Positions 1,965 to 24,394 of a DNA stretch of 36,121 nt are shown one piece after another. A model generated the notes under the pieces. It saw nothing but the letters and a program-made list of their open reading frames with translations. It ran no database searches and was not told the DNA's origin. A program made the position numbers and the translations under genes. This stretch comes from Gammaproteobacteria bacterium (GTDB lineage Bacteria > Pseudomonadota > Gammaproteobacteria > CAIRSR01): positions 1-36,121 of the forward strand of contig CAUYTW010000122.1 of assembly GCA_963575715.1 (NCBI GenBank), written 5' to 3'. Each line of letters opens with the position of its first letter. Within the stretch, counting starts at the first letter, position 1.

Positions 1965-2086
1965 ATGTCTGAATGTTCAGGGAAGACCAACCACGTTTAA
2001 TTGAATCCAGGGGTAACTGGTGGTAAGTTGGGGTAGCCGTTCTGCGCTTGAAGGAGTTACCCCAAAATGACCTTAACCGATATCAA

Positions 2087-2143
2087 TAGGAGTTACGCAG
2101 TTGAATTGTAATACTTTAATTTTGGTATAGATAAATACAACTA
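2087..2143 (+). repeat. Partial MITE arm (GGAGTTACGCAG family)
   Basis: It begins GGAGTTACGCAGTTGAATTG at 2089, preceded by TA, and matches the left arm of the complete MITE at 3876-4054 through the following TAAT. After 55 bases it is interrupted by a second copy of the same terminal repeat at 2144, which belongs to the IS701-like element. It is probably a MITE hit by a related full-size element. Confidence 0.6.
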
Positions 2144-2572
2144 GGAGTTACGCAGTTGACAAACAATTGCGTTAAAATACAACAATGAATCCTCCGAAAT
2201 GCAGTGCACACGATTACATCCAGTTTTTAATCGCCACCCCGCGTAATTATAGTTGCACGGAGGCTGCCAAAGTCTCCCCGATAATTAACGCTCCTCCCGC
2301 GCATGACGCTTTTACACGGCTTTTATCCCGTAAGGAGCCACAATTCAGATGAATTGTGGCTGGAAGTAGAATCCCTCATCGATAAAACCAAAGGGATTTT
2401 GGTTATCGATGATTCAACTCTTGACAAGCCTTACGCTCGTCAAATCGACCTGGTCAATTATCATTGGTCAGGGAAACATCATGCAACCGTTCCAGGAATC
2501 AACCTGATTACGCTGCTTTGGACGGACGGCGATAGTTACGTCCCCTGTGATTATCGAATTTATACTAAACGA
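2144..2572 (+). mobile_element. IS701-like element, left part
   Basis: The left end is GGAGTTACGCAGTTGAC at 2144, preceded by TA, and the transposase start codon follows at 2185. The right end is missing: the element is cut at about 2572 by a hairpin repeat (2573-2592). Its terminal repeat is the same as that of the two short MITEs at 3876 and 11961, which makes it the likely source of the mobilising transposase. The IS701 assignment comes from the transposase, not the ends. Confidence 0.65.
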
Positions 2573-2602
2573 CTACCGGCTAAAGCCGGTAGGTTTCTCT
2601 AA
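2185..2602 (+). pseudogene. IS701-like DDE transposase, frameshifted and truncated
   Basis: From the ATG at 2185 the protein reads MNPPKCSAHDYIQFLIA and onward to AHDAFTRLLSRKEP. It then leaves frame between about 2330 and 2345, and continues in the frame of 2303 as NSDELWLEVESLIDKTKGIL, VIDDSTLDKPYARQ, HWSGKHH, INLITLLWTDGD and DYRIY. The VIDDSTLDKP segment carries the first catalytic Asp region of this DDE family. After DYRIYTK the coding sequence runs into an unrelated hairpin and stops at 2602. A full transposase would be roughly three times longer, so the gene is inactive twice over: one frameshift and one 3' truncation. Confidence 0.75.
2573..2592. repeat. TAAA-loop hairpin
   Basis: CTACCGGC and GCCGGTAG form a perfect 8-bp stem closed by TAAA. 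It cuts the IS701-like transposase. The same hairpin type (G/C stem around TAAA) recurs at 24525, 27344, 28296 and 36070 and belongs to the IS200/IS605-like end family described in the findings. Confidence 0.6.
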
Positions 2603-2605
2603 CAT

Positions 2606-2707
2606 ATTAATCTGTGCATAAGTAAGGTGACACTTAAAAATTGTGTGATAGGCTGTGGACTGGATCTCCAATTTTAAGAGTGTCACCTAACCAATGCACA
2701 GATTAAT
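2606..2707. repeat. 102-bp MITE with about 35-bp terminal inverted repeats
   Basis: The left arm begins ATTAATCTGTGCAT and runs through GGTGACACTTAAAA. The right arm is its inverted copy with a few differences (TTTTAAGAGTGTCACCT to ATTAAT). Only about 30 unique bases lie between, so nothing is encoded. The right arm is identical to the inverse of 909-940. No target-site duplication is obvious. Confidence 0.75.
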
Positions 2708-2876
2708 AGTTGTTACCACAAAATTAGAAGAAATCTGGTTTTTTTAACATCTAATTCGTTCAAACCAGCCTACCTTTAGCGGGAAAAAGCGACATAATTG
2801 CCGTTCTACTGGTTAAACTAAGCTATATCAAACATCTCACGTTAGATAAAATTAAACATTTAAGAATTAAAATTTA

Positions 2877-3824
2877 ATGAATAATAAATTTCTAATAGAT
2901 ACTTTAGAAGGATTAACGGCTCCTAATAAATATTTAAAAAGCTGTTATATGTACGATGCAACGGGCGATAATTTGTTTCAAGAAATTATGAAACTTGATG
3001 GTTATTATCTCACTCATTGTGAATACGAGATTTTTGAGAAGTATAACGATGAAATGATGACTATTTTTTCTGACAGTACAGAAAAATTTAATCTTGTTGA
3101 GTTGGGGGCAGGTGATGGTCACAAAACCAAGATTATTTTGAAAAATTACGAAAAAAGTCATAAAAAAACAACTTATATCCCAATTGATATTTCAGAAAAC
3201 ATTTTAACGCTACTAAAAAATGATTTGGCGATATTGCATCCAGATTTGCAAATAAAGCCTATAGTTGGCGATTATATTAGTGCATTAAAAATGCTGATGA
3301 ATTCTGAAGAAAAATGTAAAAATGTGGTGATGTTTATTGGTAGTACCATAGGTAATTTTTTGCCCTCAGAAACCGAAATTTTTTTGCAAGAACTGACAAG
3401 CTGTCTTGATAGTGGCGATATGATGCTCATAGGATTTGATTTGAAAAAAAGCCCTTCAGTGATTAAAAAAGCTTATCCTTCAAATATATTTTCTGAAAGT
3501 TTAGTTAAAAATATTTTAGTGCGGATTAATAATGAGTTACAAGGTAATTTTGAATTAGAGTGTTTTGAATACTTTTTTTTTTACAATCCCGTTAATGGCT
3601 TAGGAGAATCTTCATTAATTAGTAAAAAAAATCAAACGGTTAATTTATTAGCTTCTAATACTGAAATTAGCTTTAAAGCATGGGAAAAGATTAGTGTTTG
3701 CTATCATCAAAAATACGAAGAAGCTGATATTGAAATTTTTGCAGAAAAATCGGGATTTACGGTCGTGCGTAATTTTTATGATGTTAATAAATACTTTTGT
3801 AATTCTATTTGGAAATTAAAATAG
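2877..3824 (+). CDS. EgtD-like histidine-family SAM methyltransferase
   Basis: A 315-residue protein of the Methyltransf_33 (EgtD-type) family, whose best-known member trimethylates histidine on the way to ergothioneine. Family hallmarks are visible in order: YMYDATGDNLFQEIMKLDGY near residue 22 with the following YLTHCEYEI, the SAM-binding loop ELGAGDGHKT near 75, YIPIDIS near 99, and FIGSTIGNFLP near 149. No EgtB/OvoA sulfoxide synthase lies nearby, so the substrate is open: histidine, or another amino or imidazole group. Codon use is strikingly AT-rich compared with flanking core genes, and no clear RBS precedes the ATG. The nearest downstream gene is a P-type ATPase of the same composition, now separated by a MITE. 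Recent acquisition is likely. Family confident, substrate not. Confidence 0.8.
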   Translation: MNNKFLIDTLEGLTAPNKYLKSCYMYDATGDNLFQEIMKLDGYYLTHCEYEIFEKYNDEMMTIFSDSTEKFNLVELGAGDGHKTKIILKNYEKSHKKTTYIPIDISENILTLLKNDLAILHPDLQIKPIVGDYISALKMLMNSEEKCKNVVMFIGSTIGNFLPSETEIFLQELTSCLDSGDMMLIGFDLKKSPSVIKKAYPSNIFSESLVKNILVRINNELQGNFELECFEYFFFYNPVNGLGESSLISKKNQTVNLLASNTEISFKAWEKISVCYHQKYEEADIEIFAEKSGFTVVRNFYDVNKYFCNSIWKLK

Positions 3825-3875
3825 AAGTATTGATAATGTTGATTTAGTTGTAAAACCTTTCTACTTTAACATATA

Positions 3876-4054
3876 TAGGAGTTACGCAGTTGAATTTGTA
3901 ATTCTATACAGGATTGAGTTTTTTCTATCATTCTGCGCGGAGGTCGCGTTAGCGACCGCAGTCGCAGAATCTATGTGTAGTATGTAGATGGATTCTGTGA
4001 CTCCGCTTCGCTGCGCGCAGAATGACTTCCTATTTTTCAACTGCGTAACTCCTA
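3876..4054. repeat. MITE of the GGAGTTACGCAG family, complete copy 1
   Basis: The ends are GGAGTTACGCAGTTGAA (from 3878) and its inverse TTCAACTGCGTAACTCC (to 4052), flanked by TA on both sides. A second nested inverted repeat inside (TCATTCTGCGCG and CGCGCAGAATGA) brackets a GC-rich core unlike the AT-rich surroundings. It lies between the methyltransferase and the ATPase, just 8 bases before the ATPase start, and could have separated the two genes from a shared transcript. Confidence 0.85.
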
Positions 4055-4062
4055 ATATAAAT

Positions 4063-6096
4063 ATGTTACCTATTTTACCATTTATTGCTCTGGGCAGCAT
4101 AATTTATGTTGCTGTGAGTGATTTTTATAAAAAACGTTTTGATAAAGCTGAGTTATCTGTTGTTCCTACAGATATAATTGATTCTACAAAAGTATCAGAA
4201 AATTTTGACCCTATTGCTAAAGAGAAAAATGTTAAAAATGATTTGGTTTATTCAATAAGCGCATTAACATTAACTGGCATAGGTATTGTAGCATTATTAC
4301 CAGCTTTAGTTTTAATTGCTATTCCAATCGAGCTATATTTATTTCTGCCTTTCATCAGGCGCGGTTATCTTAAGTTATTTGAAAATAAAAAAATTAGTGT
4401 TCATTCGGTTGATACAGTTGTATCTTTAGTTTTAATAAGTGGCGGCTATTTTTTTGCTTCGGCATTATTCTTTACTTTTTTCAATATCAGCCAACTTTTA
4501 TTATTAAAGACACAACGACAATCTCAAAAAAATTTAACTAGTATTTTAGGTGAACAGCAAAACTCAGTTTGGTTATTTAAAGATGGAGTTGAAATAGAAA
4601 TTGCTATTGATAATCTTCAACAAGGTGACATCATTATTGTGCAAGCCGGTGAAATGATTGTTGTAGATGGGAGAATCACATTTGGTATTGCCAGTATTGA
4701 CCAGCATATTTTAACGGGTGAATCTCAACCCGTTGAAAAAACGATTGATGATGAAGTATTTGCCGGAACAGTTGTCTTATCAGGAAAATTATTTGTACAG
4801 GTGGAAAAGGCCGGTAAAGAAACGGTGGCAGAACAAATTGGGGTCATTTTAAACGACACAGCTCATTTTGAATTTAATGTGCAAACCAGAGGCGAACGCT
4901 ATGCTGACCAAGCTGCGTTACCAACTTTAATTATTGCGGGTCTTACATTCCCATTATTAGGTTATGCGAGTGCGGCAACCGTATTATTTGCAACATTGGG
5001 GTCTAATATGCGGATTATTGCGCCAATAAGTGTCCTTAATGCTTTAAAAACAACTTCAAAGCACGGCGTATTAATCAAAGATGGTCGCGCATTGGAATGT
5101 TTAGCGAATGTGGATACGGTGATTTTTGATAAAACCGGAACGCTGACAGAAGAACAACCGCACATCGGTCGTATTTATACTGCCGCTAATTATGATGAAA
5201 ATACTGTGCTAACTTTAGCGGCGTGTGCTGAATACCGACAGACCCATCCGATTGCTAAAGCCATTGTGCAAGCCGCACAACAACGCAATCTACCGTTAAA
5301 CGCAATCGAACACGCCCATTATGAAGTAGGTTATGGCTTAAAAGTTAATACGCAGGAACAGGTTATTTGTGTCGGAAGTTGGCGTTTTATGCAGATGGAA
5401 CAAATTACTATTCCAATGACAATGCAATCTATACAGGAAGATTGTCAAGAACAAGGTTATTCTGTTGTTTATGTGACGATTAATCAACAACTAGTTGGTG
5501 CAATTGAATTGCTTCCTACTTTGCGTTCTCATATTAAAGAAATTGTTGATCAATTGCATCAGCGTAATATTAAAACTTATATTATGTCGGGTGACAATGA
5601 AAAGCCCACGCAACAATTAGCGAAACAATTAAATATTGATGAATATTTTTCCGAAGTATTGCCCACAGACAAAGCCAATTTAATTGTCGAATTACAGGCA
5701 CAAGGAAGAAATGTCTGCTTTATTGGCGACGGTATCAATGATGCAATTGCTTTAAAACAAGCGAATGTGTCAATTTCATTACACGGAGCTTCCAGTATTG
5801 CGACAGATACCGCGCAAATTTTGTTAATGGACAGTGGCTTGGAACATATCCCTTGGCTATTTGAATTTGCTGATAAATTAAACAGCAACTTACAACGTAG
5901 TTTAATTCTCAGTGTCATTCCAGGGTTTATCTGTATTGGCGGGGTTTATTTACTTCATTTTGGTGTTATCGCGGGTACTATATTATACAATGTGAGTTTG
6001 GCGGTTGGAGTTGGAAATACTATGGTATTAAATGACTCATGCGAAAAAATTAATCAACACAATAAATTAGGGCGTGTTCACAGTAAAGGGGGTTGA
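4063..6096 (+). CDS. P-type metal-ATPase-like protein lacking the CPC motif
   Basis: A 677-residue P-type ATPase. Visible motifs are LTGESQP (actuator, T218-E220), DKTGT with the phosphorylated D356, HPIAKAI (the HP signature of P1B pumps), a MSGDNE nucleotide-domain segment, and GDGINDA at about 555. Hydrophobic segments lie near the N-terminus, before the actuator, before DKTGT and at the C-terminus. There is no N-terminal CxxC metal domain. The CPC/SPC membrane motif expected about 40 residues before DKTGT is replaced by SNMRIIAPIS, so the transported ion cannot be predicted. The ATG at 4063 is chosen because an upstream extension lies inside the MITE. The last eight codons (from 6070) are read from an inserted IS end, so the native C-terminus is lost or altered. 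Composition is AT-rich like the upstream methyltransferase. Confidence 0.85.
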   Translation: MLPILPFIALGSIIYVAVSDFYKKRFDKAELSVVPTDIIDSTKVSENFDPIAKEKNVKNDLVYSISALTLTGIGIVALLPALVLIAIPIELYLFLPFIRRGYLKLFENKKISVHSVDTVVSLVLISGGYFFASALFFTFFNISQLLLLKTQRQSQKNLTSILGEQQNSVWLFKDGVEIEIAIDNLQQGDIIIVQAGEMIVVDGRITFGIASIDQHILTGESQPVEKTIDDEVFAGTVVLSGKLFVQVEKAGKETVAEQIGVILNDTAHFEFNVQTRGERYADQAALPTLIIAGLTFPLLGYASAATVLFATLGSNMRIIAPISVLNALKTTSKHGVLIKDGRALECLANVDTVIFDKTGTLTEEQPHIGRIYTAANYDENTVLTLAACAEYRQTHPIAKAIVQAAQQRNLPLNAIEHAHYEVGYGLKVNTQEQVICVGSWRFMQMEQITIPMTMQSIQEDCQEQGYSVVYVTINQQLVGAIELLPTLRSHIKEIVDQLHQRNIKTYIMSGDNEKPTQQLAKQLNIDEYFSEVLPTDKANLIVELQAQGRNVCFIGDGINDAIALKQANVSISLHGASSIATDTAQILLMDSGLEHIPWLFEFADKLNSNLQRSLILSVIPGFICIGGVYLLHFGVIAGTILYNVSLAVGVGNTMVLNDSCEKINQHNKLGRVHSKGG

Positions 6097-12092: not shown

Positions 12093-12803
12093 ATGAACCA
12101 CAGCAATGACCATCATTCCATTCCGTTTGGAGGATCCGTGTACCGCTTGATTTCCTGCCTATTGCTGGCCGCCTTGCCTTTTATCGCCGTCACTGCAGGG
12201 CCGGTGCGTTACGTCACCGACAACCTCTCGATTCCAATGCGCACCGGAACCACGCTGCAACACAAAATTCTCAAAATGCTGCCAAGCGGTGTCGCCGTAG
12301 AAGTGCTGGAAGCTAACAACGACAATACCAGGGTTAAGGCGCAAGGAGCCGAGGGTTGGGTACTGACTCGTTTCCTAGAAAATATTCCTCCTGCACGCAT
12401 CCGTTTGGATCAGGCCGAACAAAAAGTGGCCACTCTCGAATTGGAGAACACCCGATTGAAAACTGAAATTAAAGGAGTTGGAGAACATCGCAGCCAAACG
12501 GAAAGTAATTACCAAAAACTTCAAGAAGACAATCAACATCTTCGCGCCAATCTCAATACATTGCGTCAGACTGCTGCTAACGTGATTGACATCGCCAAAC
12601 AAAATGATGAACTCAAGAAGCGTTTAATCGAACTGGAACGCATTCGTCAGGCCCTGCAACAACAAAATGCGGTGCTCCAGGATCGCACGGCTCGGGATTG
12701 GTTCATGATCGGCGCGGCGGTAGCCATCGCGGCGATGGTAGTCAGTCTCCTGACCCCGAAAATGATACGCTGGCGACGACGCTCGCAGTGGGATACGCTT
12801 TAA
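12093..12803 (+). CDS. ygiM: TIGR04211/YgiM-type SH3 and membrane-anchor protein
   Basis: A 236-residue envelope protein. Domains in order: a signal peptide (hydrophobic ISCLLLAALPFIAVTAG, about residues 20-36), a bacterial SH3 domain (about 37-100, with YVTDNLSIPMRTGTTLQHKI and EGWVLTRFL), a long coiled coil (about 105-205, rich in Q, E, L and N), and a C-terminal membrane helix (WFMIGAAVAIAAMVVSLLTP, about 206-225) with a basic tail. The layout equals E. coli YgiM, whose role is unclear but is probably linked to the cell wall. A MITE lies immediately upstream, so its promoter is either within the MITE or lost. A hairpin after the stop probably terminates it. Confidence 0.85.
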   Translation: MNHSNDHHSIPFGGSVYRLISCLLLAALPFIAVTAGPVRYVTDNLSIPMRTGTTLQHKILKMLPSGVAVEVLEANNDNTRVKAQGAEGWVLTRFLENIPPARIRLDQAEQKVATLELENTRLKTEIKGVGEHRSQTESNYQKLQEDNQHLRANLNTLRQTAANVIDIAKQNDELKKRLIELERIRQALQQQNAVLQDRTARDWFMIGAAVAIAAMVVSLLTPKMIRWRRRSQWDTL

Positions 12804-14068: not shown

Positions 14069-14314
14069 CATCACAGATGTTTGATGATTGAAATTTATCA
14101 TCACATCCTGAAACAGATTTGTAGCGTTGAGCGTTACCAGGCTCGCGGTGCGAGCGCCTAATGGAATTATATTGGATTCGCAATCTAGGCTTTCTTACGT
14201 CTAGAAATATTTTTCTTCCAAAACAAAATTTGTGATCTGGAAAGAAAAGCTCATTTATACGAAATGCAGTTCACGATTATTTAGCCGCTCATCTTTACAT
14301 ATTGCCTGTATCAT

Positions 14315-14331
14315 CAACTACGTAACTCCTA
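14315..14331 (-). repeat. Single arm of the GGAGTTACGCAG terminal repeat
   Basis: CAACTACGTAACTCCTA differs at one base from the right arm of the complete MITEs. No matching left arm is found in the preceding 250 bases. The sequence at 14259-14280 resembles the start of the IS701-like transposase gene (2193-2218), so this may be the end of a decayed deletion derivative. Confidence 0.45.
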
Positions 14332-14360
14332 AAATCTTTTGTTTCATTAGCGAATGGAAT

Positions 14361-15146
14361 ATGAAATTATTATTTGGAATCATTACTTTAATTGGGGCGC
14401 TCTTCATCTCAACAATTGCCGCCTATTTTAGCATTATTGGTCTTGCCATAATTTTTGCTGCGGCTTTTATGCCTGTGGTAGTCATGACCGGAGTTCTCGA
14501 AGCAGGAAAAATAATTGCTTCGGTGTGGTTGCATACTAATTGGAGCAATGTCGAAGTAAGCTGGATCCATAAAATATATCTTACTCTAGCGATCATTGCG
14601 CTTATGCTAGTCACTGCGGTTGGTATTTATGGATTTTTAAGCAAGGGTTATTTTGAACAAAAAGCTCCGCTCGCCAGCGTCAATTTTCAGATTATCCGAT
14701 GTGAGCAAAGCATTGCCCAGGTTGAACACGAGAACGTCAGATTTCAAAATAATTTGGATCAGCTTGATAAATTTGTTGACGCCTATCTTAAAAATGACAA
14801 AATAACCATCAGCATCAAAGAAAGAAAAGAACAAAAAGTTGAACGTGATGCAATACAAAATCAGCTAGATAAAAATATGAAGGAAATTTCTCGGCTGAAT
14901 GACGAGCTGCTGTCATTTCGTATGAAAACGAATGATATTGAGACCGAGCTTGGGCCAATTAAATATGTTGCCATGTTATTTGGACTACAAGATACGAGCA
15001 AGGCGGTACGGACGCTTATTTTGTTGTTAATGTTCGCCTTTGACCCGCTGGCGATTGTTTTAATTCTTTCTGCGTCTATTTCTTTACGGGAATATTTTGC
15101 GGCAAAAGCCATAACTAAAAACAATTCCTATCCTACTGATAAATAA
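14361..15146 (+). CDS. Phage-like membrane protein with central coiled coil
   Basis: A 261-residue membrane protein starting with MKLLFGIITLIGALFIST. Two hydrophobic helices (about residues 1-55) include IIGLAIIFAAAFMPVVVMTG followed by VLEAGKIIASVWL. A third is near LAIIALMLVTAVGIYGFLSK. A charged coiled coil covers about 110-215, and a fourth hydrophobic stretch TLILLLMFAFDPLAIVLIL precedes the C-terminal ISLREYFA. I recall this layout and the IYGFLSKxxxEQ block from uncharacterised proteins of marine and cyanobacterial phages. That is memory, not a search. An upstream in-frame start would read through a repeat arm, so the ATG at 14361 is chosen. The gene interrupts the expected 5' part of the following APH-like gene. 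Confidence 0.6.
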   Translation: MKLLFGIITLIGALFISTIAAYFSIIGLAIIFAAAFMPVVVMTGVLEAGKIIASVWLHTNWSNVEVSWIHKIYLTLAIIALMLVTAVGIYGFLSKGYFEQKAPLASVNFQIIRCEQSIAQVEHENVRFQNNLDQLDKFVDAYLKNDKITISIKERKEQKVERDAIQNQLDKNMKEISRLNDELLSFRMKTNDIETELGPIKYVAMLFGLQDTSKAVRTLILLLMFAFDPLAIVLILSASISLREYFAAKAITKNNSYPTDK

Positions 15147-15167
15147 ATGAATTAAATTATAGACCTC

Positions 15168-16454
15168 GTGAGTAGAAGCAGCACCCGCCCTCACCAAATC
15201 AATATGGTTCAATTCCTTAACGAAGATCAATTTGATCAGCTACTCGCCCAAGGGGCGCTGCAGCGTGCCTGGATTGATGATCTCGCGCATCGAGTAGCAA
15301 CTTTTCATCGGATGATTCCCCCAATCTGCACGAACAGTCCTTATGGTACCCCCGTAGCGGTATTCAAGGCTGTGATCGAGAATTTCCGCCATCTCCGCGT
15401 TAGGTCTCAAAGTTTCGCTGATCGACGACGCGTAACCAGCCTGGAAACCTGGAGTCGAACTCAATATGCCAGGCTTGCGCCACTCATGGCCGCACGGCGA
15501 AGTGGCAAATTCGTGCGTGAATGCCACGGTGATGCGCATCTTGGTAATATTTTCCTGATCAGTGGCGAAGTGACGATTCGAGATGCCATTCAATCCAACT
15601 CAGACTTGCGCTGGATTGACACTATCAACGAGGTTGCCTTGCTTCTTATGGATTTCGATGAACGCGGCGCGTTTGATTTTGCGGCACGTTTCCTGGATCT
15701 TTACTTGGAGGACAATGGAGATTACGCCGGGCTTGCACTATTGCGTTTTTATCAAGTCTATCAAGCATTAGTCCGCGCTAAAAAAATGGCGATCCACCTG
15801 AACCGGAAAGACCTGGACATGACCGAACGGGACGCTACGCTGGCCAGCTATCGGCGTTATTTAAAGTTGGCGTTAGGGTATACCCGTCCATCACCACGTT
15901 TGCTGGTGATTGCTCATGGTCCTTCTGGCGTCGGCAAAACCACACTGACCAATCATCTCCTCCATCGCTTGGGAGCGATACGGATACGCTCAGACGTTGA
16001 ACGCAAACGATTATTTGGCCTCATGCCGCTAGAACGTTCGGAATCGCGACAATTCGAGGGAATTTATACGGCAGAAGCCAATCGACGCACCTATCAACGC
16101 ATTGAGGATCTTGCGGCGGAAGTATTAGCCGCAGGATTCACGGTGATTGTCGAGGCCACTTTTCTCAAACGGCGGGGCCGGGATGCGATGCGCGCACTTG
16201 CGGCACGGCAGGGAGCGGTCTTTGCGTTGCTTGACTTGCGTGCCACGCCCGCGACCCTCCACGCACGGATTGTTGAGCGGCAACGGGTCGGGTTGGATGC
16301 CTCAGAAGCGGGAGTGGCAGTGCTTGAGCATCAATTGGCAACTGCCGAGCCGCTCACCAACGATGAAATGGGTGCCGCGCTTTTGGTGGATACTGAGTCG
16401 AATGTAGACATGGACGATCTCGCGGCGTGGTTGCGCGCGCGCGCCTGCGGTTAA
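15168..16454 (+). CDS. APH-like / P-loop kinase fusion (COG2187-COG0645), N-terminally truncated
   Basis: A 428-residue two-domain protein. The first part is an aminoglycoside-phosphotransferase-like domain with the catalytic loop RECHGDAHLGNIFL (HGDxHxGN) and the metal-binding WIDTINEVALLLMDFD. The second is a small-molecule kinase-like domain with Walker A AHGPSGVGKTTL (about residue 247) and a lid-like VERQRVG region. Relatives carry about 100 more residues at the N-terminus, including the nucleotide-binding half of the APH domain. Here the family similarity starts abruptly at MVQFLNEDQF (about residue 13), just after the phage-like gene ends. The GTG at 15168 is the first start available. 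This is probably a remnant with an active kinase domain at best. It is convergent with the minus-strand chaperone cluster. Confidence 0.75.
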   Translation: MSRSSTRPHQINMVQFLNEDQFDQLLAQGALQRAWIDDLAHRVATFHRMIPPICTNSPYGTPVAVFKAVIENFRHLRVRSQSFADRRRVTSLETWSRTQYARLAPLMAARRSGKFVRECHGDAHLGNIFLISGEVTIRDAIQSNSDLRWIDTINEVALLLMDFDERGAFDFAARFLDLYLEDNGDYAGLALLRFYQVYQALVRAKKMAIHLNRKDLDMTERDATLASYRRYLKLALGYTRPSPRLLVIAHGPSGVGKTTLTNHLLHRLGAIRIRSDVERKRLFGLMPLERSESRQFEGIYTAEANRRTYQRIEDLAAEVLAAGFTVIVEATFLKRRGRDAMRALAARQGAVFALLDLRATPATLHARIVERQRVGLDASEAGVAVLEHQLATAEPLTNDEMGAALLVDTESNVDMDDLAAWLRARACG

Positions 16455-16474
16455 AGCCTGATTGTCGTCAGGCT
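16455..16474. terminator. Bidirectional hairpin between convergent genes
   Basis: AGCCTGA (16455-16461) and TCAGGCT (16468-16474) form a perfect 7-bp stem around TTGTCG. It directly follows the plus-strand stop and includes the minus-strand stop codon. No T run is present, so termination would be weak. Confidence 0.5.
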
Positions 16475-17964
16475 GCCTGCGCGAGCGCGGATCGTGCATT
16501 GACCGCAGCCCACTGTTCAAGATGAACTAGATCGTCCGCGCGGGTTTTTGCCAGCGGAATAATTTCTGCCAGCGACATTTTGAGGTCGCTGTTGGTCAGC
16601 TCACGATAATTATCGCTAAAGGCACGATACAGTCCGCTGACAATGGCCTCCTCAATCTCAGCGCCGGAATAGCCACGACTCGCCGATACTAGTCCCGAAA
16701 GATCGAAACGCGCTGGATCCCGTTTGCGTCGCGTGAGATGGATACTGAAGATACTCCGTCGTTCATACTCACCCGGTAAACCAACGAAAAATAGTTCATC
16801 AAAGCGACCCTTGCGAGTGAATTCCGCTGGTAGGCGTCGAATATCGTTGGCGGTGGCGATAACAAATACGGGAGCCTGGCGGTCCTCCAGCCAGGTAAGA
16901 AAAGTGCCAAATAATCGCCGCGCGACTCCGCTATCGTGAGTTTGGCCCAACCCACTGAACGCCTTTTCCAGCTCATCAATCCAAAGTATGCAAGGACTAA
17001 TCACCTCAGCGGTATGCAAGGCACGGCGCAGACGAAGTTCGGATTCACCGAGCAACGCAGCGTACACTCGCCCCAGATCCAGTCGTAGCAACGGTACCTG
17101 CCAATCCATCGCCAACGCCTTGGCGGATAGGCTTTTACCACAACCCGGCACGCCCACCAGTACCACCCCCCTGGGAGGACGCAAACCGAAATCCTGGGCA
17201 TCGGCGTCGAAGGCGCGCCGCCGTTGAGCGAACCATTCCTTGAGCCGTTCCAGACCACCAACATCGGCAAAACTGACTTCGGGTTGGCGAAATTCCAGAA
17301 TGCCTTCTTTGCGTACAATTTGTTCTTTTTCGGCTAAAACATCGGGAACGCAAGCCAGGTTCAGCTCTCCATGACGTGCGAGACTGCGGCGGAGAACACG
17401 TTCTGCCTCGCTACTGGTTAAGCCTAATACTGCCCGCGCCAAAGTTTCTTTGATCGGCTGCTCTGTTGACGGGCCACCAGAATGAGCTGCTATTGTTTCC
17501 ACTAGGTTTCCAAGTGCGGCCACGTCCGGCGACGGGTAGAACAACAGCGTGGCGTCTGCCATCAATTCCTCGGGAATCGTCGTTGGTGGACCAAGGAATA
17601 CCATGCTTTTACGAATCCGCTTGGCGGTCGCAACGGCATCACGAATCAGGCGTAAACACACAGGAGTGAAATGACGATGGATATCGAGGAATATGTAAAT
17701 AGCATCGATCGATTCCTGAATAACCTGCTCAAGGGCCAGTAGCGGATCAGATCGATTGGTTTGAGGAGTCACCCGGCGTCCTGCTTCGTCTCGTAACCCG
17801 GTGGTTTCACTCCAGATAAATAACGCGATTTCTTTTTTAATTGCCAGCCTTGCGCGCACTTGTCGTAGCGATGCCAAGGCGCGCTCTTCCTCGTAAGTTT
17901 GCAACCAAAGCAGCGGAAAACGCGCTCGTAGATGTAGCTCAATTAATTCTTCGACAGGGTTCAT
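16468..17964 (-). CDS. Ycf46-like AAA+ ATPase
   Basis: A 498-residue AAA+ ATPase of the Ycf46/COG0464 type. The N-terminal 250 residues (MNPVEELIELHLRARFPLLW, then LQTYEEERAL) match the family's degenerate first domain. The second is a full AAA module with Walker A VGVPGCGKS (about 271-278), Walker B ILWIDELEK (about 324-332), sensor 1 IATAND, and an arginine-finger region FTRKGRFDELF. The ATG at 17964 is chosen because the in-frame extension lies inside the preceding gene and lacks family similarity. Only 13 bases separate it from that gene. It is the last gene of a six-gene minus-strand cluster with Hsp70 and a thioredoxin-TPR, which suggests a remodelling or unfolding role. That is inference. 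The chloroplast and cyanobacterial homologue is otherwise linked to carbon uptake control. Confidence 0.88.
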   Translation of the reverse strand: MNPVEELIELHLRARFPLLWLQTYEEERALASLRQVRARLAIKKEIALFIWSETTGLRDEAGRRVTPQTNRSDPLLALEQVIQESIDAIYIFLDIHRHFTPVCLRLIRDAVATAKRIRKSMVFLGPPTTIPEELMADATLLFYPSPDVAALGNLVETIAAHSGGPSTEQPIKETLARAVLGLTSSEAERVLRRSLARHGELNLACVPDVLAEKEQIVRKEGILEFRQPEVSFADVGGLERLKEWFAQRRRAFDADAQDFGLRPPRGVVLVGVPGCGKSLSAKALAMDWQVPLLRLDLGRVYAALLGESELRLRRALHTAEVISPCILWIDELEKAFSGLGQTHDSGVARRLFGTFLTWLEDRQAPVFVIATANDIRRLPAEFTRKGRFDELFFVGLPGEYERRSIFSIHLTRRKRDPARFDLSGLVSASRGYSGAEIEEAIVSGLYRAFSDNYRELTNSDLKMSLAEIIPLAKTRADDLVHLEQWAAVNARSALAQAA

Positions 17965-17977
17965 AAAACAAATTAAA

Positions 17978-18709
17978 TTAATGTGTTGGCGAGGTTGATG
18001 TCTGAGCAGCGGGAGTCGATTCCTGCCCTGATTGAGAAAAACGTGTTCCGAGTTCTCCCATGACCATGCCCAAAGCAGTAATGCGTTCTTCCTGACGCGC
18101 TCCAAGAGCGCGAATTGATTCGCGTTCAAGCGCTACAGCCTGCTCTAGCGCGGCAAGACGTTCCACAATCTCGCGGAATGGTTCTTTTTGCGTGGTGGTC
18201 GCAGTCTGAATTGCAGTGCCCATGATGGTGATGGCCTTTTCAAGCCCTTCCAAATGCTTTTCAAGGGCAGTTATCCGTCGCTCGTCTACTTCATGAAAAT
18301 TATCTAATACTGCTTCCATGCGAATACTTGCCGATGAATAGGATTGAATTGCTTGAACGAGCACAATTCCTCCCAATAAGAGGATGACTAAATATTGAAT
18401 CGCTAGATGCAAATTAGCGCGCAAGAGGATCAAACGAGATGGGCGATCTTTTATCTCCATGGCTAATTCCATTGCTTGTTGAATCTCTTGATTGTCTGGT
18501 TGTATAGATTGAACCGCGCGCCAATGATCAATTGCGGCGTCGAATTGTCCCTGTTGAACTAAAATTCTACCCCGTAACAGCCCTGCACGAACTGGATCCT
18601 CAACCGGAGAGGGTAGAGTATCCAACAGGGAAAGCGCAGCACGGTAATGACCCGAGGCTGCAAGACGCTCGGCCTCGATAAAAATCGATTGAGTATTAAT
18701 AGGAGTCAT
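17978..18709 (-). CDS. Membrane TPR and coiled-coil protein of the Hsp70 cluster
   Basis: A 243-residue protein of no family I recognise. The ATG at 18709 begins MTPINTQSIFIEAERLAASG. Residues 8-90 form TPR-like helices (HYRAALSLLD, GQFDAAIDHWRAVQSIQPDN). One membrane helix follows (about 103-122, LAIQYLVILLLGGIVLVQAI), then an extended coiled coil to the C-terminus (RITALEKHLEGLEKAI, ERLAALEQAVALERESIRAL), ending in a low-complexity Ser/Thr tail. The TPR side would face the cytosol and the coiled coil the periplasm, or the reverse. Upstream in-frame codons overlap the end of the Hsp70 gene, so the later start is preferred (38-base gap). It may tether the chaperones to the inner membrane. Confidence 0.7.
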   Translation of the reverse strand: MTPINTQSIFIEAERLAASGHYRAALSLLDTLPSPVEDPVRAGLLRGRILVQQGQFDAAIDHWRAVQSIQPDNQEIQQAMELAMEIKDRPSRLILLRANLHLAIQYLVILLLGGIVLVQAIQSYSSASIRMEAVLDNFHEVDERRITALEKHLEGLEKAITIMGTAIQTATTTQKEPFREIVERLAALEQAVALERESIRALGARQEERITALGMVMGELGTRFSQSGQESTPAAQTSTSPTH

Positions 18710-18747
18710 TGCTTGCCAGCGTTTTGTGGAAAGTTTCTGGACAAACT

Positions 18748-21369
18748 TCAGGAAAGAACAATAGACGGCGATTTTCCTGTCTTTTTGGATGCCAGCCGAT
18801 CTTTGCATGGGCCAGAAAACATACAGTCTTCAATCCATTGGTGCATATCCGGAATTATTTTATCAATACGCTTGATATATTGACTAATTTGTACGACATC
18901 TTCCTTGGCAAGCATTTCCACGCCGCCTTTAGCTTCCATGCTGTCTAAAAATTCATTTGCATCGTGAACCAGAGTTACTTGCGCTACCGGCCCTTCATGG
19001 CCACCAGCGGCGAGTATTCGTAGCATTAGCTGCTCGTATGGACACACCCGGATCTCATTATCTAATTCTTGTAATTCTTTTTCTAATTGCTCATGATTGG
19101 ATCCAATGGTTAAATATTCTCGATGAATGATCGCCAAACGATTTTTATGACGCCTGGCATTCATCATTACTTCGGGATCCTTGCTTTTTTCAAGCAAATC
19201 GATAATTCGTCCTAAATTTTCCATGAGAATTTCAGTGCGTTTAGTTTTCTGCACGCGTTGCAGATAGAGGATTGTCCCCTTCATTTCAGCCAGATGCTGT
19301 TGGGCGCGCCATTGATTGCCAATACGCTCTCCACCCTCGATTTGTTGCGCACGGTGTAGATCTCTGGCGATACTTTGTTCTGCTTCTTGTTCATTCAGTT
19401 TTGATAATACCCGTTCCACTTCAAGATTACGCTTGCGAGTCTGAATATCCCGGATCACTTTAAGTTCGTTAGTGATTTCCTTCAACTGATAGGTTAATTC
19501 GTCAATAGAAGAGGGCAAGGCATCGGTTTTGGTGAATTCAGCATCGAAATCCTCACCCAGTAACTGGACATAGGCCGAAATGGTAATCTTTTGCGAACCA
19601 TCGGATTCCAGTTGCACGTCTACTTCTGTACCTGCGGGAAGATCGCGAGTAACACGGCGATCATCGCCCTTGATGATGAGCGTTCCCACGGGCACTGCGC
19701 AATTCAAAGTATTTTCTTCCTCTCCAACGATATTAAGTACCGAAGCAACCGCTGGAATCCACAAAACGTCATCATTGTCTCCCTTGCGAAGCTGCTTGGT
19801 GGTCTTGAATCTTCTACGACCATGGGCGGGAAGCGCTGCGCCGCGTTGAATAAGAATTGTCGCACTTCCATCAGCGGTTCCAATGCGCAATGAGGTCGGT
19901 TGTTGATTTTTTGGCGGGGTAACATAGGGATACCAAATACGTGGCCCTTCCTCGTGCGCAAGAATTTTTCCTTCGTTATCGTAAACATTGGTGGTGAATG
20001 TCGAAAGAAAGGGCTTTCCTTTATCAACCAGCAGCAGATCGGCCTCGAATAATCCGCGTTCATCCAAGGAAAGACGTCCACTGGACCAAAGTTTGTCATC
20101 GCGTTCGATTTCCACAGAAAGTTCCGCCATGGATATATCTTCCCCTTCCACCGCGCCCATCAGATGATAAGTGGAAATGCTGGAATGGGCATCAGCTTGA
20201 AGTTTAAGCGTGATCTGTCCCATTTTTTTGTTAGCGTGATTGTTTTCGTTATCGGGATGGGGAATTGTTGCCGCGTAGATAGCCGCTCCCTGAGCTACAG
20301 CAGTCATGGGATCAATTCGATCCAGTAATGGAATCCCAAGACGCTCACTTAAAACTTTTCTTATATAGGGTGTTTTTGTGGGGCCACCGACCAAAATGAC
20401 CGAATCAATTTGTTCGTTGCGTAATTTTTGACGTTCCAGTAGTGTTTCACAGACCTGTGCCGCGCGCGCCACATCAGGCGTAATTAATTGCTCATAGGTT
20501 TCACGGGTAATCTCCATATCAACAGGAACAGTCTCTCCATTATCATCACAAGCAAGATCTATTTCCAATTTTGCCCTGCGTTGCGTAGAGAGCTTTATTT
20601 TTAAATCCTCAATTCGCAATCTCAGTCGTCCGCGATCCTGAGAGAATCTATCGCTACGCTGAAATTGTTCCATTGGATATTCTTTTGAGAGCTGCTCCAT
20701 GATGTATTCATATAGAGTATGGTCAAAATTTCGACCTCCAAGATAATTATCTCCAGCGTGGCCATCTTCCAATACCCGCATTTCCCCTTTGCGTACCACA
20801 ACCAACGAAACATCGAGAGTCCCTCCACCTAAATCAAAGACCATCCATTGCGCGCGTTCATCAGAGGCATTGAATCCATAGGCAAGGGCTGCCGCCACAG
20901 GTTCTTGAAGAAGTTCAAAATGATGTAATCCAGCTAATTCAGCTGCGCGGCGAGTTCCTTCTACTGCTGCCTGATCGAACATGGCAGGTCGGGTAATGAT
21001 CGCTGATTTTGGACGTTCGCCCGTCTCACGCTGACAAAGATCCAGCAATTCGCCAATAACCAATCCTCCCAGTTCAGGTCCAGTGAGGGTTTTTCCCGAT
21101 GCAGAAAATTTATATTCAATATTGCGACCGATATCGGGTTTATATTCACCGATACCACTACCTTCGGTTTCGGGTAAAGTCAACAATGACTCACGCGCGG
21201 TTTTTCCCACGTATTTCGTACCGCGCTTGGTAAAATAAACAAATGAAGGCATTACCCGCTCGGTCGGAGTTGGACCTATTACCCATACTCCACTCGCTTC
21301 CATGACCGCGATGGCTGAATTGCTGGTGCCGTGATCGATGCCGATATTTACAAAACGATTGCTTGACAT
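18748..21369 (-). CDS. Divergent Hsp70 family chaperone with long C-terminal extension
   Basis: An 873-residue Hsp70, longer than DnaK (about 640). The nucleotide-binding domain shows IGIDHGTSNSAIAVME (phosphate 1), LLQEPVAAALAYGF, FDLGGGTLDVSLVVV (phosphate 2) and SVILVGGPTKTPYIRKVL (adenosine), so ATP binding should be intact. A substrate-binding-like beta region follows (about 400-600), and beyond 600 a long, mostly helical extension (LDNEIRVCPYEQLMLRILAA region) replaces the short DnaK lid. There is no C-terminal EEVD or DnaK-type acidic tail. It lies 17 bases after a possible GrpE-like gene and is preceded by a thioredoxin-TPR gene. No J-domain gene is present. It is probably a specialised cytosolic chaperone rather than the housekeeping DnaK. 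Confidence 0.9.
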   Translation of the reverse strand: MSSNRFVNIGIDHGTSNSAIAVMEASGVWVIGPTPTERVMPSFVYFTKRGTKYVGKTARESLLTLPETEGSGIGEYKPDIGRNIEYKFSASGKTLTGPELGGLVIGELLDLCQRETGERPKSAIITRPAMFDQAAVEGTRRAAELAGLHHFELLQEPVAAALAYGFNASDERAQWMVFDLGGGTLDVSLVVVRKGEMRVLEDGHAGDNYLGGRNFDHTLYEYIMEQLSKEYPMEQFQRSDRFSQDRGRLRLRIEDLKIKLSTQRRAKLEIDLACDDNGETVPVDMEITRETYEQLITPDVARAAQVCETLLERQKLRNEQIDSVILVGGPTKTPYIRKVLSERLGIPLLDRIDPMTAVAQGAAIYAATIPHPDNENNHANKKMGQITLKLQADAHSSISTYHLMGAVEGEDISMAELSVEIERDDKLWSSGRLSLDERGLFEADLLLVDKGKPFLSTFTTNVYDNEGKILAHEEGPRIWYPYVTPPKNQQPTSLRIGTADGSATILIQRGAALPAHGRRRFKTTKQLRKGDNDDVLWIPAVASVLNIVGEEENTLNCAVPVGTLIIKGDDRRVTRDLPAGTEVDVQLESDGSQKITISAYVQLLGEDFDAEFTKTDALPSSIDELTYQLKEITNELKVIRDIQTRKRNLEVERVLSKLNEQEAEQSIARDLHRAQQIEGGERIGNQWRAQQHLAEMKGTILYLQRVQKTKRTEILMENLGRIIDLLEKSKDPEVMMNARRHKNRLAIIHREYLTIGSNHEQLEKELQELDNEIRVCPYEQLMLRILAAGGHEGPVAQVTLVHDANEFLDSMEAKGGVEMLAKEDVVQISQYIKRIDKIIPDMHQWIEDCMFSGPCKDRLASKKTGKSPSIVLS

Positions 21370-21386
21370 AATTGACGATAAATAGA

Positions 21387-21932
21387 TTAAGGTGGCCTGG
21401 CAACAATACCCCGAGCGGTTTGAATCAATTTACCGTGAAGGAATATTACGGGATTTTCGCAAACCACGATTTTCGGTTTGGTCAAGGATGGATCTATTTC
21501 TGCCACCGCGATATTTTCAAAATCGAGCCTTCCTTCATGATACTCTTGTCCGGTCAGATCATGGTATTCAATCCCTTGTTGCTCGAAAGCTTGTTGTAGA
21601 TATTCCGTCGCTGTTCGCAAACGACGGACCGGGCGTGGTGGACTTGGCATTCGTTCCAGTTGCGCCAGGTGCGAGGTCAGACGAAAATGTTCATTGCAGA
21701 TATTTTTTGCGAATTCCTCGGTAATACCGCTTCCATTATGTTTTGTCAAATGCCGCCGATATTCTTCTTCAGCCTTGACAAACGGAGTAAGGGCGGCAAT
21801 TACCGCCCTGCTTGCGGACATTCGCCACGCGACGGCGACAGATGGCGTGATCCGAAACGGAGCAAAAAAACTACGCTGATATGTGTTTGCCAGAAAACGT
21901 CGCGTGCGGGAAATCAGGCATTGTAGTGACAT
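21387..21932 (-). CDS. Uncharacterised Hsp70-linked protein, possibly GrpE-like
   Basis: A 181-residue protein between the thioredoxin-TPR and Hsp70 genes (gaps of 31 and 17 bases). The N-terminal 45 residues are basic (RTRRFLANTYQR). The middle is helical (AEEEYRRHLTK, FAKNICNEHFRLTSHLAQLE). The C-terminal part has TEYLQQAFEQQGIEYHDLTG, then QEYHEG, IDPSL and VIFLHGKLIQTARGIVARP. This resembles the GrpE beta-domain pattern (G-[IV]-E-x-x-D-x-x-G-x-x-[YF]) and its terminal hydrophobic strand. GrpE is the nucleotide exchange factor of Hsp70, and the position next to a divergent Hsp70 fits that reading. The resemblance is weak and seen by eye only. It could equally be an unrelated co-chaperone. 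The start codon is uncertain. Confidence 0.6.
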   Translation of the reverse strand: MSLQCLISRTRRFLANTYQRSFFAPFRITPSVAVAWRMSASRAVIAALTPFVKAEEEYRRHLTKHNGSGITEEFAKNICNEHFRLTSHLAQLERMPSPPRPVRRLRTATEYLQQAFEQQGIEYHDLTGQEYHEGRLDFENIAVAEIDPSLTKPKIVVCENPVIFLHGKLIQTARGIVARPP

Positions 21933-21963
21933 GCGGTTTGCCGAAAAAGCAAAAATTTTATTC

Positions 21964-22836
21964 CTAGTGCAGGAGATTAACTAGACGTTTACGATAACGC
22001 ACTACTAGCTGGTTATCCGCACCGAGAAATGCAAAAATGGTGAGAAGCGCCTTACGTGCGCCATCATCACGAAATTTACGATCACGTCGCACAATTTCTA
22101 ATAAGTTTTCTATCGCTTCCAAATAATTTTTTGCTATTAATTGTGTCGTTGCCAAACAATAACGCGCGTCATGATCCAAGGGGTTTGCTGCGAGAAATGC
22201 TTCCAGGGTTTGATGATTCGTATCCCGGGCGGTCTTTACGAGTTCGAGATACGAGATAAGCATTTCTGCTTCACCAAGCTCATATTGAAATGCACTCAGA
22301 ATGGATTCTGCTTCTCGCAATTCGTTTCGCGTAAGGAATAAGCGCGCCAAATCAAGTTGTATGGCCTTATTAGCGGGTTCTAACTCAATGGCGCGACGTA
22401 AATTGACTAAAGCGTCATCAAAGTTGCCCTGTTCGCACGCTGCGGCCGCCTGTTGTCGTAATTGCCCGGCTTTTTGATCAACGTGGCGATCAAGATAACT
22501 ACGCACTACTTTTTCGGGTTGAGCACCCATGAATTCTTCCACTACTTTACCGTGGCGGAAAATTTTCACGGTGGGTAGATTCCTTACTCCATAACGCTGG
22601 GCAAGCTCTCGTTCCTGATCAGTGTTGACCTTGGCAAGAGCAAATTTACCCTGGTATTCCTGAGCAAGCCTGGCTAGCATTGGCATTAATACCTGGCACG
22701 GACCGCACCAGGCCGCCCAAAAATCGACCACTACCGGAACGTCCCGTGAACGATCAATAACTAAGGTCGGAAACGTGGTTGACGTGACATTAAAAACAAG
22801 ATTGTCTTCGGACATATTTTTAAGAGTGTCTGCCAT
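21964..22836 (-). CDS. cnoX: Thioredoxin-TPR co-chaperone, CnoX/YbbN family
   Basis: The N-terminal thioredoxin domain (about residues 12-118) carries the active site WAAWCGPC (Cys44 and Cys47) and the cis-proline RNLPTVKIF. The C-terminal half is TPR-like (NFDDALVNLRRAIELEP, NELREAESILSAF, LEAIENLLEIVRRDRKF). CnoX proteins hold oxidatively damaged clients and pass them to Hsp70 or GroEL. E. coli CnoX lacks a functional CxxC, while this one keeps CGPC and could also reduce disulfides. Two starts are possible: 22836 (MADTLKNM), which overlaps the mltD end by 17 bases, or 22815 (MSEDNLVF), which fits the family better and avoids the overlap. Neither has a clear RBS, so coupling to mltD translation is likely. 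Confidence 0.88.
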   Translation of the reverse strand: MADTLKNMSEDNLVFNVTSTTFPTLVIDRSRDVPVVVDFWAAWCGPCQVLMPMLARLAQEYQGKFALAKVNTDQERELAQRYGVRNLPTVKIFRHGKVVEEFMGAQPEKVVRSYLDRHVDQKAGQLRQQAAAACEQGNFDDALVNLRRAIELEPANKAIQLDLARLFLTRNELREAESILSAFQYELGEAEMLISYLELVKTARDTNHQTLEAFLAANPLDHDARYCLATTQLIAKNYLEAIENLLEIVRRDRKFRDDGARKALLTIFAFLGADNQLVVRYRKRLVNLLH

Positions 22837-24394
22837 GAGTTCGAGATGAATGCTTGTTGTGAGCGGCCTTAATCACGGAATGCCGCTGGTGTTGCAAGGA
22901 CTGAGCATCGTGATGCTTTCCTCGCGCCAAAATTGTTGCTTTTATCCGGCCATGTTTATTCACTTGATCGGTATGTCCATGGCTTTTCGTCAAGACTACT
23001 GCTTCAGTGCCTTGGCTCAAGGTTAAACGTTGACCGGGATGCAGAGAAACACGCGATTTAAGATGGTTCCAAGCAATAATATCCTTTACGCGAACCCCCG
23101 CAGCGCGCGCCAGACTTCCGAGAGTATCACCACGACGCACCACATGGATCATCTGTACTGGAGCTCGATTTGTGATGGCATTTTCCGTGGATGGTTCAGG
23201 GGCAGCGGATACTGGCTTGATGTCGGCCTCCACAGGTGGTGCGTCACTCGCCCTCTGGAAAGGCGAAAGTTCCTGGGGATCCATCGCCGCCAGACGTGCC
23301 TCAAACAGTCGTGCCTGCGGCTCCGGCAACAAAAAATTTCCTCCCTCGGAATCCGTTTTTCCCTGGCGATAGGCGGGATTAAGACGTTTCATTTCATGCA
23401 AAGAAATATCTGCAATTTCCGCGACTTTTGCCAAGTCTACCTGATAATCAATCTTGACCGAGACGACCGGTCGATCACGCAGGGTTTTGAGTTGGACACC
23501 ATAATTTTGAGGTTCAGCGATGACGGCTGCCAAGCCCAGGATGCGGGGTACGAAGGCGCGTGTTTCGGCGGGAAGCTCCAATGACCAAAAATCAGTAGGC
23601 TTGCCGTGGGCAAGATTTCTCCGAATGGCACGCGAAACACTGAATTCTCCACAATTATAGGCAGCCATGGTAAGCAACCAGTCACCCTCGAAATCGTCGT
23701 TGAGCTTTTGAAGATAATCCAGGGCTGCATGGGTCGATGCAAACACATCACGACGACCATCATAATGCTGGTTCAACTCTAGCCCCCAATGGCGCGCCGT
23801 CCCCGGGATGAGCTGCCACAGTCCGGCAGCACGCCGGGGAGAAGTAGCCCGAGGCTGATAGGCGCTCTCCACCGCTGGTAGCAACGCCACTTCCACGGGC
23901 ATATTTCGCCGCTGCACCTCTCCCAACACGAAATTGAAATAAGGCTCGGCCTGCTCCGAGATATAGTCTAAAAAGCGTTGGTTACGGGCATAAAAATTGG
24001 CTTCTTTCTGAATGCGAGGATGATCAGGTTCAGTCAGAGTTACCAAATCGCCTACCGTATCCCATAAACTGACAACATTTTCTTCTAAATCATTATGTTC
24101 TTTCTTTATTGGTGTTTTGGTGAACCAATGACTGAATCCAAAATTCTTTACCCTACTGGAAGGCGTCAGTTCAGATTCTGATTTTTTCCACCATGCAGTT
24201 AACCAATCAATTTTTCCACTCGTATTGCCTTCTTCCTCCTGGGTAAGGGAATTTGACTCATCTTGTCCCTTTAATACCAGGGAATCTGGGTTATCCTGAG
24301 AATCTGCATCACTTTTTTGATAGGCGGGATCACTCGCGCAACCTGAAAGACTAATGGCGAATAACGAGGATAACGTAAGAATTATTTTTTTCAT
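22820..24394 (-). CDS. mltD: Membrane-bound lytic murein transglycosylase D
   Basis: MltD cleaves peptidoglycan glycan strands with formation of 1,6-anhydro ends. The protein has a lipoprotein signal MKKIILTLSSLFAISLSGCA (lipidated Cys19), a low-complexity acidic linker, an SLT domain with catalytic Glu176 in LLPAVESAYQPRATS and the following GLWQLIPGTARHWGL, then one LysM domain (IHVVRRGDTLGSLARAAGVR, about residues 417-465) and a histidine-rich basic tail. E. coli MltD has two LysM repeats and this one has a single clear copy. It is the first gene of the minus-strand cluster and overlaps the start of the thioredoxin gene by up to 17 bases. Whether it has any functional link to the chaperones is unknown. 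Confidence 0.92.
   Translation of the reverse strand: MKKIILTLSSLFAISLSGCASDPAYQKSDADSQDNPDSLVLKGQDESNSLTQEEEGNTSGKIDWLTAWWKKSESELTPSSRVKNFGFSHWFTKTPIKKEHNDLEENVVSLWDTVGDLVTLTEPDHPRIQKEANFYARNQRFLDYISEQAEPYFNFVLGEVQRRNMPVEVALLPAVESAYQPRATSPRRAAGLWQLIPGTARHWGLELNQHYDGRRDVFASTHAALDYLQKLNDDFEGDWLLTMAAYNCGEFSVSRAIRRNLAHGKPTDFWSLELPAETRAFVPRILGLAAVIAEPQNYGVQLKTLRDRPVVSVKIDYQVDLAKVAEIADISLHEMKRLNPAYRQGKTDSEGGNFLLPEPQARLFEARLAAMDPQELSPFQRASDAPPVEADIKPVSAAPEPSTENAITNRAPVQMIHVVRRGDTLGSLARAAGVRVKDIIAWNHLKSRVSLHPGQRLTLSQGTEAVVLTKSHGHTDQVNKHGRIKATILARGKHHDAQSLQHQRHSVIKAAHNKHSSRTHGRHS

Follow-up and report, generated by a model that had tools for sequence, protein, structure and literature searches.

A chromosomal gene block kept in an uncultured family of Thiotrichales brings together a long, divergent Hsp70, a small GrpE-like protein, a membrane-anchored TPR protein, and a CnoX-type chaperedoxin. 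We lean toward reading these genes as a membrane-linked machine of an Hsp70 and its nucleotide-exchange factor, coupled to CnoX and probably not run by canonical J-proteins. The basis of this reading is gene order, homology, residues lost and kept, and a single transmembrane (TM) helix.

The window, by which we mean the whole 36,121-nucleotide stretch of DNA that was analyzed, comes from an assembly of 3.7 Mb in 363 contigs (genome G000). Inspection of open reading frames (ORFs) confirmed the layout given in the initial annotation: six adjacent minus-strand genes, running from position 24394 to 16468 in the order mltD, cnoX, GrpE-like, Hsp70, TPR/TM, and AAA+ (Table 1). With the TPR gene taken to start at 18709 and the AAA+ gene at 17964, the gaps are 31, 17, 38, and 13 bases, and mltD overlaps cnoX by 17 bases. 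Promoter and terminator scans gave results close to shuffled expectation. The reported absence of a J-domain protein was borne out by a domain scan of the cluster genes, and the TPR protein, considered as a hidden J-protein, was rejected (probability of 0.3% against the J profile). Elsewhere in the window, positions 2001-6000 have a low GC content (0.34-0.36) and hold a methyltransferase-like ORF and a P-type-ATPase-like ORF.

Table 1. Genes of the cluster and the codon at the J-domain contact position
Feature	Coordinates	Strand	Basis
MltD-like lytic transglycosylase (SLT + LysM)	22820..24394	minus	Pfam/NCBIfam domain scans
CnoX-type chaperedoxin, 290 aa (Trx CGPC + TPR_20)	21964..22836	minus	Domain scan, family comparison
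GrpE-like protein, 181 aa	21387..21932	minus	Profile alignments; no Pfam or NCBIfam match
Long Hsp70, 873 aa	18748..21369	minus	PF00012 and alignments with relatives
E152 codon, equivalent to DnaK R167 (J-domain contact)	20914..20916	minus	Residue alignment
TPR - single TM - coiled-coil protein, 243 aa	17978..18709	minus	TPR domain match, TM prediction
AAA+ ATPase, 498 aa	16468..17964	minus	AAA domain match

The order mltD-cnoX-GrpE-like-Hsp70-TPR/TM is common to all four sequenced genomes of the family, which represent two genera and include two relatives that are uncultured Thiotrichales bins. The block is contiguous in three of them (G000, G001, and G003) and spread over two contig ends in G002. 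The gene that follows the TPR gene is different each time: the AAA+ gene in G000, a 175-residue membrane protein in G001, an FGE-like ORF in G002, and a hemerythrin-like ORF in G003 (the last two names were assigned by eye). This constancy of order in four of four genomes, while the downstream gene varies in all four, speaks for a functional unit and indicates that the block is not a chance grouping. Its most conserved gene is Hsp70, with 79-83% identity among family members versus 55-70% for CnoX, the GrpE-like protein, and the TPR protein. Tight spacing is not constant, since the gaps in G001 measure approximately 200-300 bases and hold a repeated element, CACCTATGCGGTGA. Copies of this element lie in two widened gaps of G001 (L028:11349-11362 and 12166-12179); it is absent from the window.

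The Hsp70 consists of an NBD (approximately residues 1-372), a beta insert (385-480), an SBD-beta (485-612), and a helical C-terminus (620-873). It matches PF00012 with 241.8 bits against a gathering score of 20.6, over residues 9-368 only, and falls below the cut-off of the NCBIfam DnaK model TIGR02350 (236 versus 822.55 bits). Positions for ATP binding and hydrolysis (D8, T11, K70, E171, D194, and T199) are kept, and so is the GrpE loop, which by a published criterion is deleted in HscA (PMC8215388). What has been lost are two features through which J-proteins act: residues H33 and D35 of the DnaJ HPD motif contact linker residue L391 and R167 of DnaK (PMC8215388; PMC13012618). The VLLLD (VLLLDV) interdomain linker had no match in any of 22 long Hsp70s, and none of these 22 has arginine at the R167 position, whereas it is present in all 19 other Hsp70s compared. 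The position is occupied by E, A, S, V, P, or D in the long Hsp70s, and by E in all four family members. Because both features are gone, canonical J-proteins are predicted not to drive this Hsp70; because the loss is clade-wide, the missing J-protein would be a property of the Hsp70 itself.

In an NBD tree, the window Hsp70 and long Hsp70s from mobile elements form one clade, apart from DnaK, HscA, and other Hsp70s, with a support of 1.0; the clade also takes in one long-branch sequence (L006). The NBD, the beta insert of approximately 100 residues, and the SBD-beta align between the window and mobile proteins (insert plus SBD: probability of 95% over 190 columns). By these comparisons, the Hsp70 belongs to a distinct, little-described clade that lacks the arginine and the linker for J-domain contact. 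A search with its C-terminal part found the four relatives and only a small number of distant genomes: 7 of 369 in the class and 5 of 398 in the phylum, each count including one marginal match. Family-specific peptides from this part, searched against genome and viral contigs, matched close relatives or nothing. Long ORFs of G015 and G049 were considered as relatives and rejected, as they belong to ordinary grpE-dnaK-dnaJ and hscBA sets. AlphaFold models made with shallow alignments had pLDDT values of 41 for the GrpE-like protein and 50 for the Hsp70, too low for a fold search.

The initial annotation had proposed a possible GrpE-like factor directly upstream of the Hsp70 and a profile check of it against GrpE. 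The protein has no match in Pfam (including PF01025) or NCBIfam, is not among the GrpE matches of G000, and on its own gave no significant match in the PDB. Nevertheless, its residues 76-181, approximately, align with the mini-GrpEs of plasmids (window family versus mini-GrpEs: probability of 85% over 101 columns), and residues 110-181, approximately, align with the final helix and the beta-wing of GrpE. The proposal is supported by a profile pooled from the window family and the mini-GrpEs, which matches this part of GrpE with a probability of 90%, versus 0.07% for unrelated control pairs; the profile of the window family alone reaches 1.2%. As the family alone does not match GrpE, we refer to the product as GrpE-like rather than GrpE, and this dependence on the pooled profile counts against the machine that we propose. 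A GrpE-like gene lies directly upstream of Hsp70 both in the family and in relatives on plasmids, in an ICE, and in an island.

Could this simply be an ordinary extra Hsp70, a paralogue that uses the DnaJ and GrpE of the host and sits beside cnoX by chance? Such partners are available: G000 has a canonical grpE-dnaK-dnaJ set, hscA, and a further Hsp70/GrpE/J set, and the block occurs in only four related genomes. However, all four carry the dedicated GrpE-like gene, R167 and the linker are lost across the whole clade, and the order is conserved while the downstream flank varies; we therefore regard this explanation as improbable. Other chaperone genes were seen in the family as well. G003, G000, and G001 (L074, L075, and L077) have a second J-domain/GrpE pair with PPE in place of HPD. 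Downstream of the block in G001, on the other strand (L028:6-7127), are RAMP-superfamily, HEAT-like, and FGE-like ORFs together with a true Pfam GrpE, the G000 counterpart of which is on C352 (L067).

Plasmids of Pseudomonas, Shewanella, Aeromonas, Vibrio, Polaromonas, Sinorhizobium, and Aminobacter carry distant long Hsp70s of approximately 830 residues. The gene is part of a five-gene mobile operon in Shewanella, E. coli HeN100, genome G226, and several IMG/VR contigs, where the order is mini-GrpE, Hsp70, AAA+, single-TM protein, and J-like protein. The mini-GrpE is a 114-126-residue ORF directly upstream of the Hsp70, and the single-TM protein of Shewanella carries a peptidoglycan-binding domain. 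The arrangement varies: the J-like gene precedes the TM or peptidoglycan-binding gene in G124, G525, and Vibrio, and in Sinorhizobium and Aminobacter the J-like domain is fused to the TM part, with no AAA gene at that place. A single TM helix is again found in the partner proteins of Shewanella, Sinorhizobium, and Aminobacter. The likeness of the J-like domain to J-domains is modest (probability of 48%), and the HPD motif is absent from every copy examined. We found no published description of this operon in the open-access literature.

Carriers of the mobile operon include plasmids, an ICE-like region, a Tn7-like element, and, in E. coli HeN100, a RADAR/Dnd island, where the five genes (L131:13586-20369) accompany RADAR rdrB and a dptF remnant; this is the only match among 5,426 E. 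coli genomes. On the Shewanella plasmid (L086:7529-15316), the operon lies directly behind the Tn7-like genes TnsA to TnsE and is likely transposon cargo. The long Hsp70 of Sinorhizobium medicae (L091:6014-10416) is interrupted by an ISNCY transposase. In G094 (L039:3013-7292), a frameshifted long Hsp70, a J-like ORF, and an AAA fragment lie between two integrase-type ORFs, with a short segment repeated on both sides.

These surroundings suggest that the block may be a domesticated anti-phage or conflict system, in which the Hsp70 and mini-GrpE came from a mobile defense operon and would still sense or disable invader complexes at the membrane. The closest relatives of the pair neighbor Tn7-like transposition genes, ZorA, restriction and Fic genes, or the RADAR and Dnd remnants of HeN100, or lie in the ICE-like region, and predicted conflict systems are known to include HSP70-GrpE themes (PMC7159879). 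Yet the block is chromosomally fixed and its Hsp70 is the slowest-changing gene, unlike defense genes; the block lacks the J-like and TM partners of the mobile operon, and its AAA+ protein is of another kind. PADLOC (2.0) models neither the Hsp70 nor the mini-GrpE, and apart from one weak match these two proteins had none there. A defense role is plausible for the mobile operon; for the block fixed on the chromosome it is less so, and we consider it unlikely there.

In the membrane-linked machine that we favor instead, the anchor would be the TPR protein. As the initial annotation had envisaged, it has one TM helix in all four family genomes (approximately residues 100-118 in the window), and the basic stretch before this helix points to a cytosolic TPR part; the C-terminus of the protein carries a conserved LGARQEERITALGMV. 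Sequence searches linked it neither to the membrane proteins nor to the J-like proteins of the mobile loci, a point against the machine. The proposed link of CnoX to the Hsp70 is strengthened by the presence of cnoX in the block in all four genomes. CnoX combines a WCGPC thioredoxin with TPR_20 in the window; the intact CGPC site noted earlier is real, but it is not conserved, the three sister genomes having CNPC, CNPC, and CAPC. Elsewhere, CnoX passes clients to DnaK and GroEL (PMC6282202).

The two outer genes of the cluster fare differently. Among genomes with a CnoX match (1.5-kb flanks), mltD adjoins cnoX in the Thiotrichales family only. It is next to a methyltransferase gene, rnhA, and dnaQ, and a position beside rnhA/dnaQ is usual for mltD in E. 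coli and other gammaproteobacteria. At this ordinary locus it gives no sign of the envelope function that it had seemed to suggest, and MltD is probably not part of the machine. As for the AAA+ gene, a search for the annotated gene order recovered mltD-cnoX-GrpE-like-Hsp70-TPR in the whole family but placed the AAA+ gene next to Hsp70 in G000 only. Its absence from this locus in the other three genomes led us to reject it as a core or conserved member: it is an accident of G000 or a late addition, probably a later neighbor of the block. Its GC content is 0.54, versus 0.46-0.48 for the TPR-to-CnoX genes; two paralogues lie at other loci of G000, and approximately one-fifth of the class genomes sampled carry a full-length homologue. 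A six-gene envelope repair machine that includes both proteins, although in keeping with the compact same-strand layout in the window genome and with the AAA+ gene of the mobile relatives, is accordingly very improbable: besides the usual locus of mltD and the absence and deviating GC of the AAA+ gene, the window AAA+ differs in kind from the mobile one, with 25-28% identity confined to the core. Two further observations concern these genes. A convergent kinase-like gene with AAA_33 at its C-terminus (15168-16454) shares the raised GC of the AAA+ gene, and in G001 (L085:584-5196) a homologue of the window AAA+ lies by a 541-aa Hsp70-fold protein, a radical-SAM activase-like ORF, and a 130-aa ORF.

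We envisage the following mechanism; its exchange activity, independence of J-proteins, transfer of clients, and site of action are inferred from sequence. The core would be the dedicated pair of Hsp70 and nucleotide-exchange factor (18748-21932) together with the TPR protein, which its one helix would anchor in the inner membrane. The Hsp70 would hydrolyze ATP and hold and release unfolded or complexed clients, and the GrpE-like protein would open its nucleotide cleft. Recruitment and triggering would most likely fall to the TPR-TM protein in the window family and to the J-like domain without HPD in the mobile relatives. CnoX may hand oxidized or unfolded clients to the long Hsp70, by analogy with CnoX-DnaK. 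The machine would therefore probably handle its clients where the inner membrane faces the cytoplasm. On the other hand, the ordinary DnaJs of the genome could act on the Hsp70 in another way, and the CnoX link comes from four genomes of one family, CnoX being absent from the mobile loci seen.

A broader scenario, which we hold as a tentative possibility, is an Hsp70 branch without control by J-domain and HPD, which would rely on a mini-GrpE and a membrane trigger, would have spread as a five-gene operon via plasmids and defense islands, and would have become fixed in the Thiotrichales family as a CnoX-fed, redox-linked membrane chaperone. J-domain proteins are regarded as obligatory partners of Hsp70, with the D35-R167 contact as the trigger of hydrolysis. 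A clade without R167 and the linker, with mobile members beside HPD-less J-like proteins, would be a natural experiment on other ways of switching Hsp70, testable in E. coli given the operon in one of its genomes. The operon is also a candidate chaperone-based island system absent from PADLOC 2.0.

Among known systems, the window block shares with the mobile operon the mini-GrpE directly upstream, the Hsp70 architecture, the lost R167, and a single-TM partner; it differs in having no J-like or homologous TM protein, in being chromosomal, in the addition of CnoX, and in an AAA+ gene of a different kind that is not conserved. GAP1-N2 GTPase conflict systems likewise combine HSP70, GrpE, and a partner of the DnaJ or TPR type (PMC7159879), whereas no GTPase or effector gene was seen beside the window block, where none of the eight genes scanned for a GTPase core (14232-24394) received a family assignment as a GTPase. 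The NBD with ATPase residues, the GrpE loop, and a partner with a putative GrpE-type wing recall DnaK-DnaJ-GrpE; unlike that system, the window Hsp70 lacks the VLLLD linker and R167 and has a beta insert and a helical tail of approximately 250 residues, its GrpE-like protein has no long-helix match, and the block has no J-protein. HscC is likewise a specialized Hsp70, and its membrane-anchored helpers DjlB/DjlC are single-pass proteins with genes close by (PMC8215388); HscC, however, has no GrpE loop and works with J-domains, whereas the window Hsp70 keeps the loop and its helper is a TPR protein. Finally, the window CnoX is, like CnoX (YbbN) of Caulobacter, a Trx plus TPR_20 protein with CxxC (PMC6282202), but it is linked to an Hsp70 other than DnaK.
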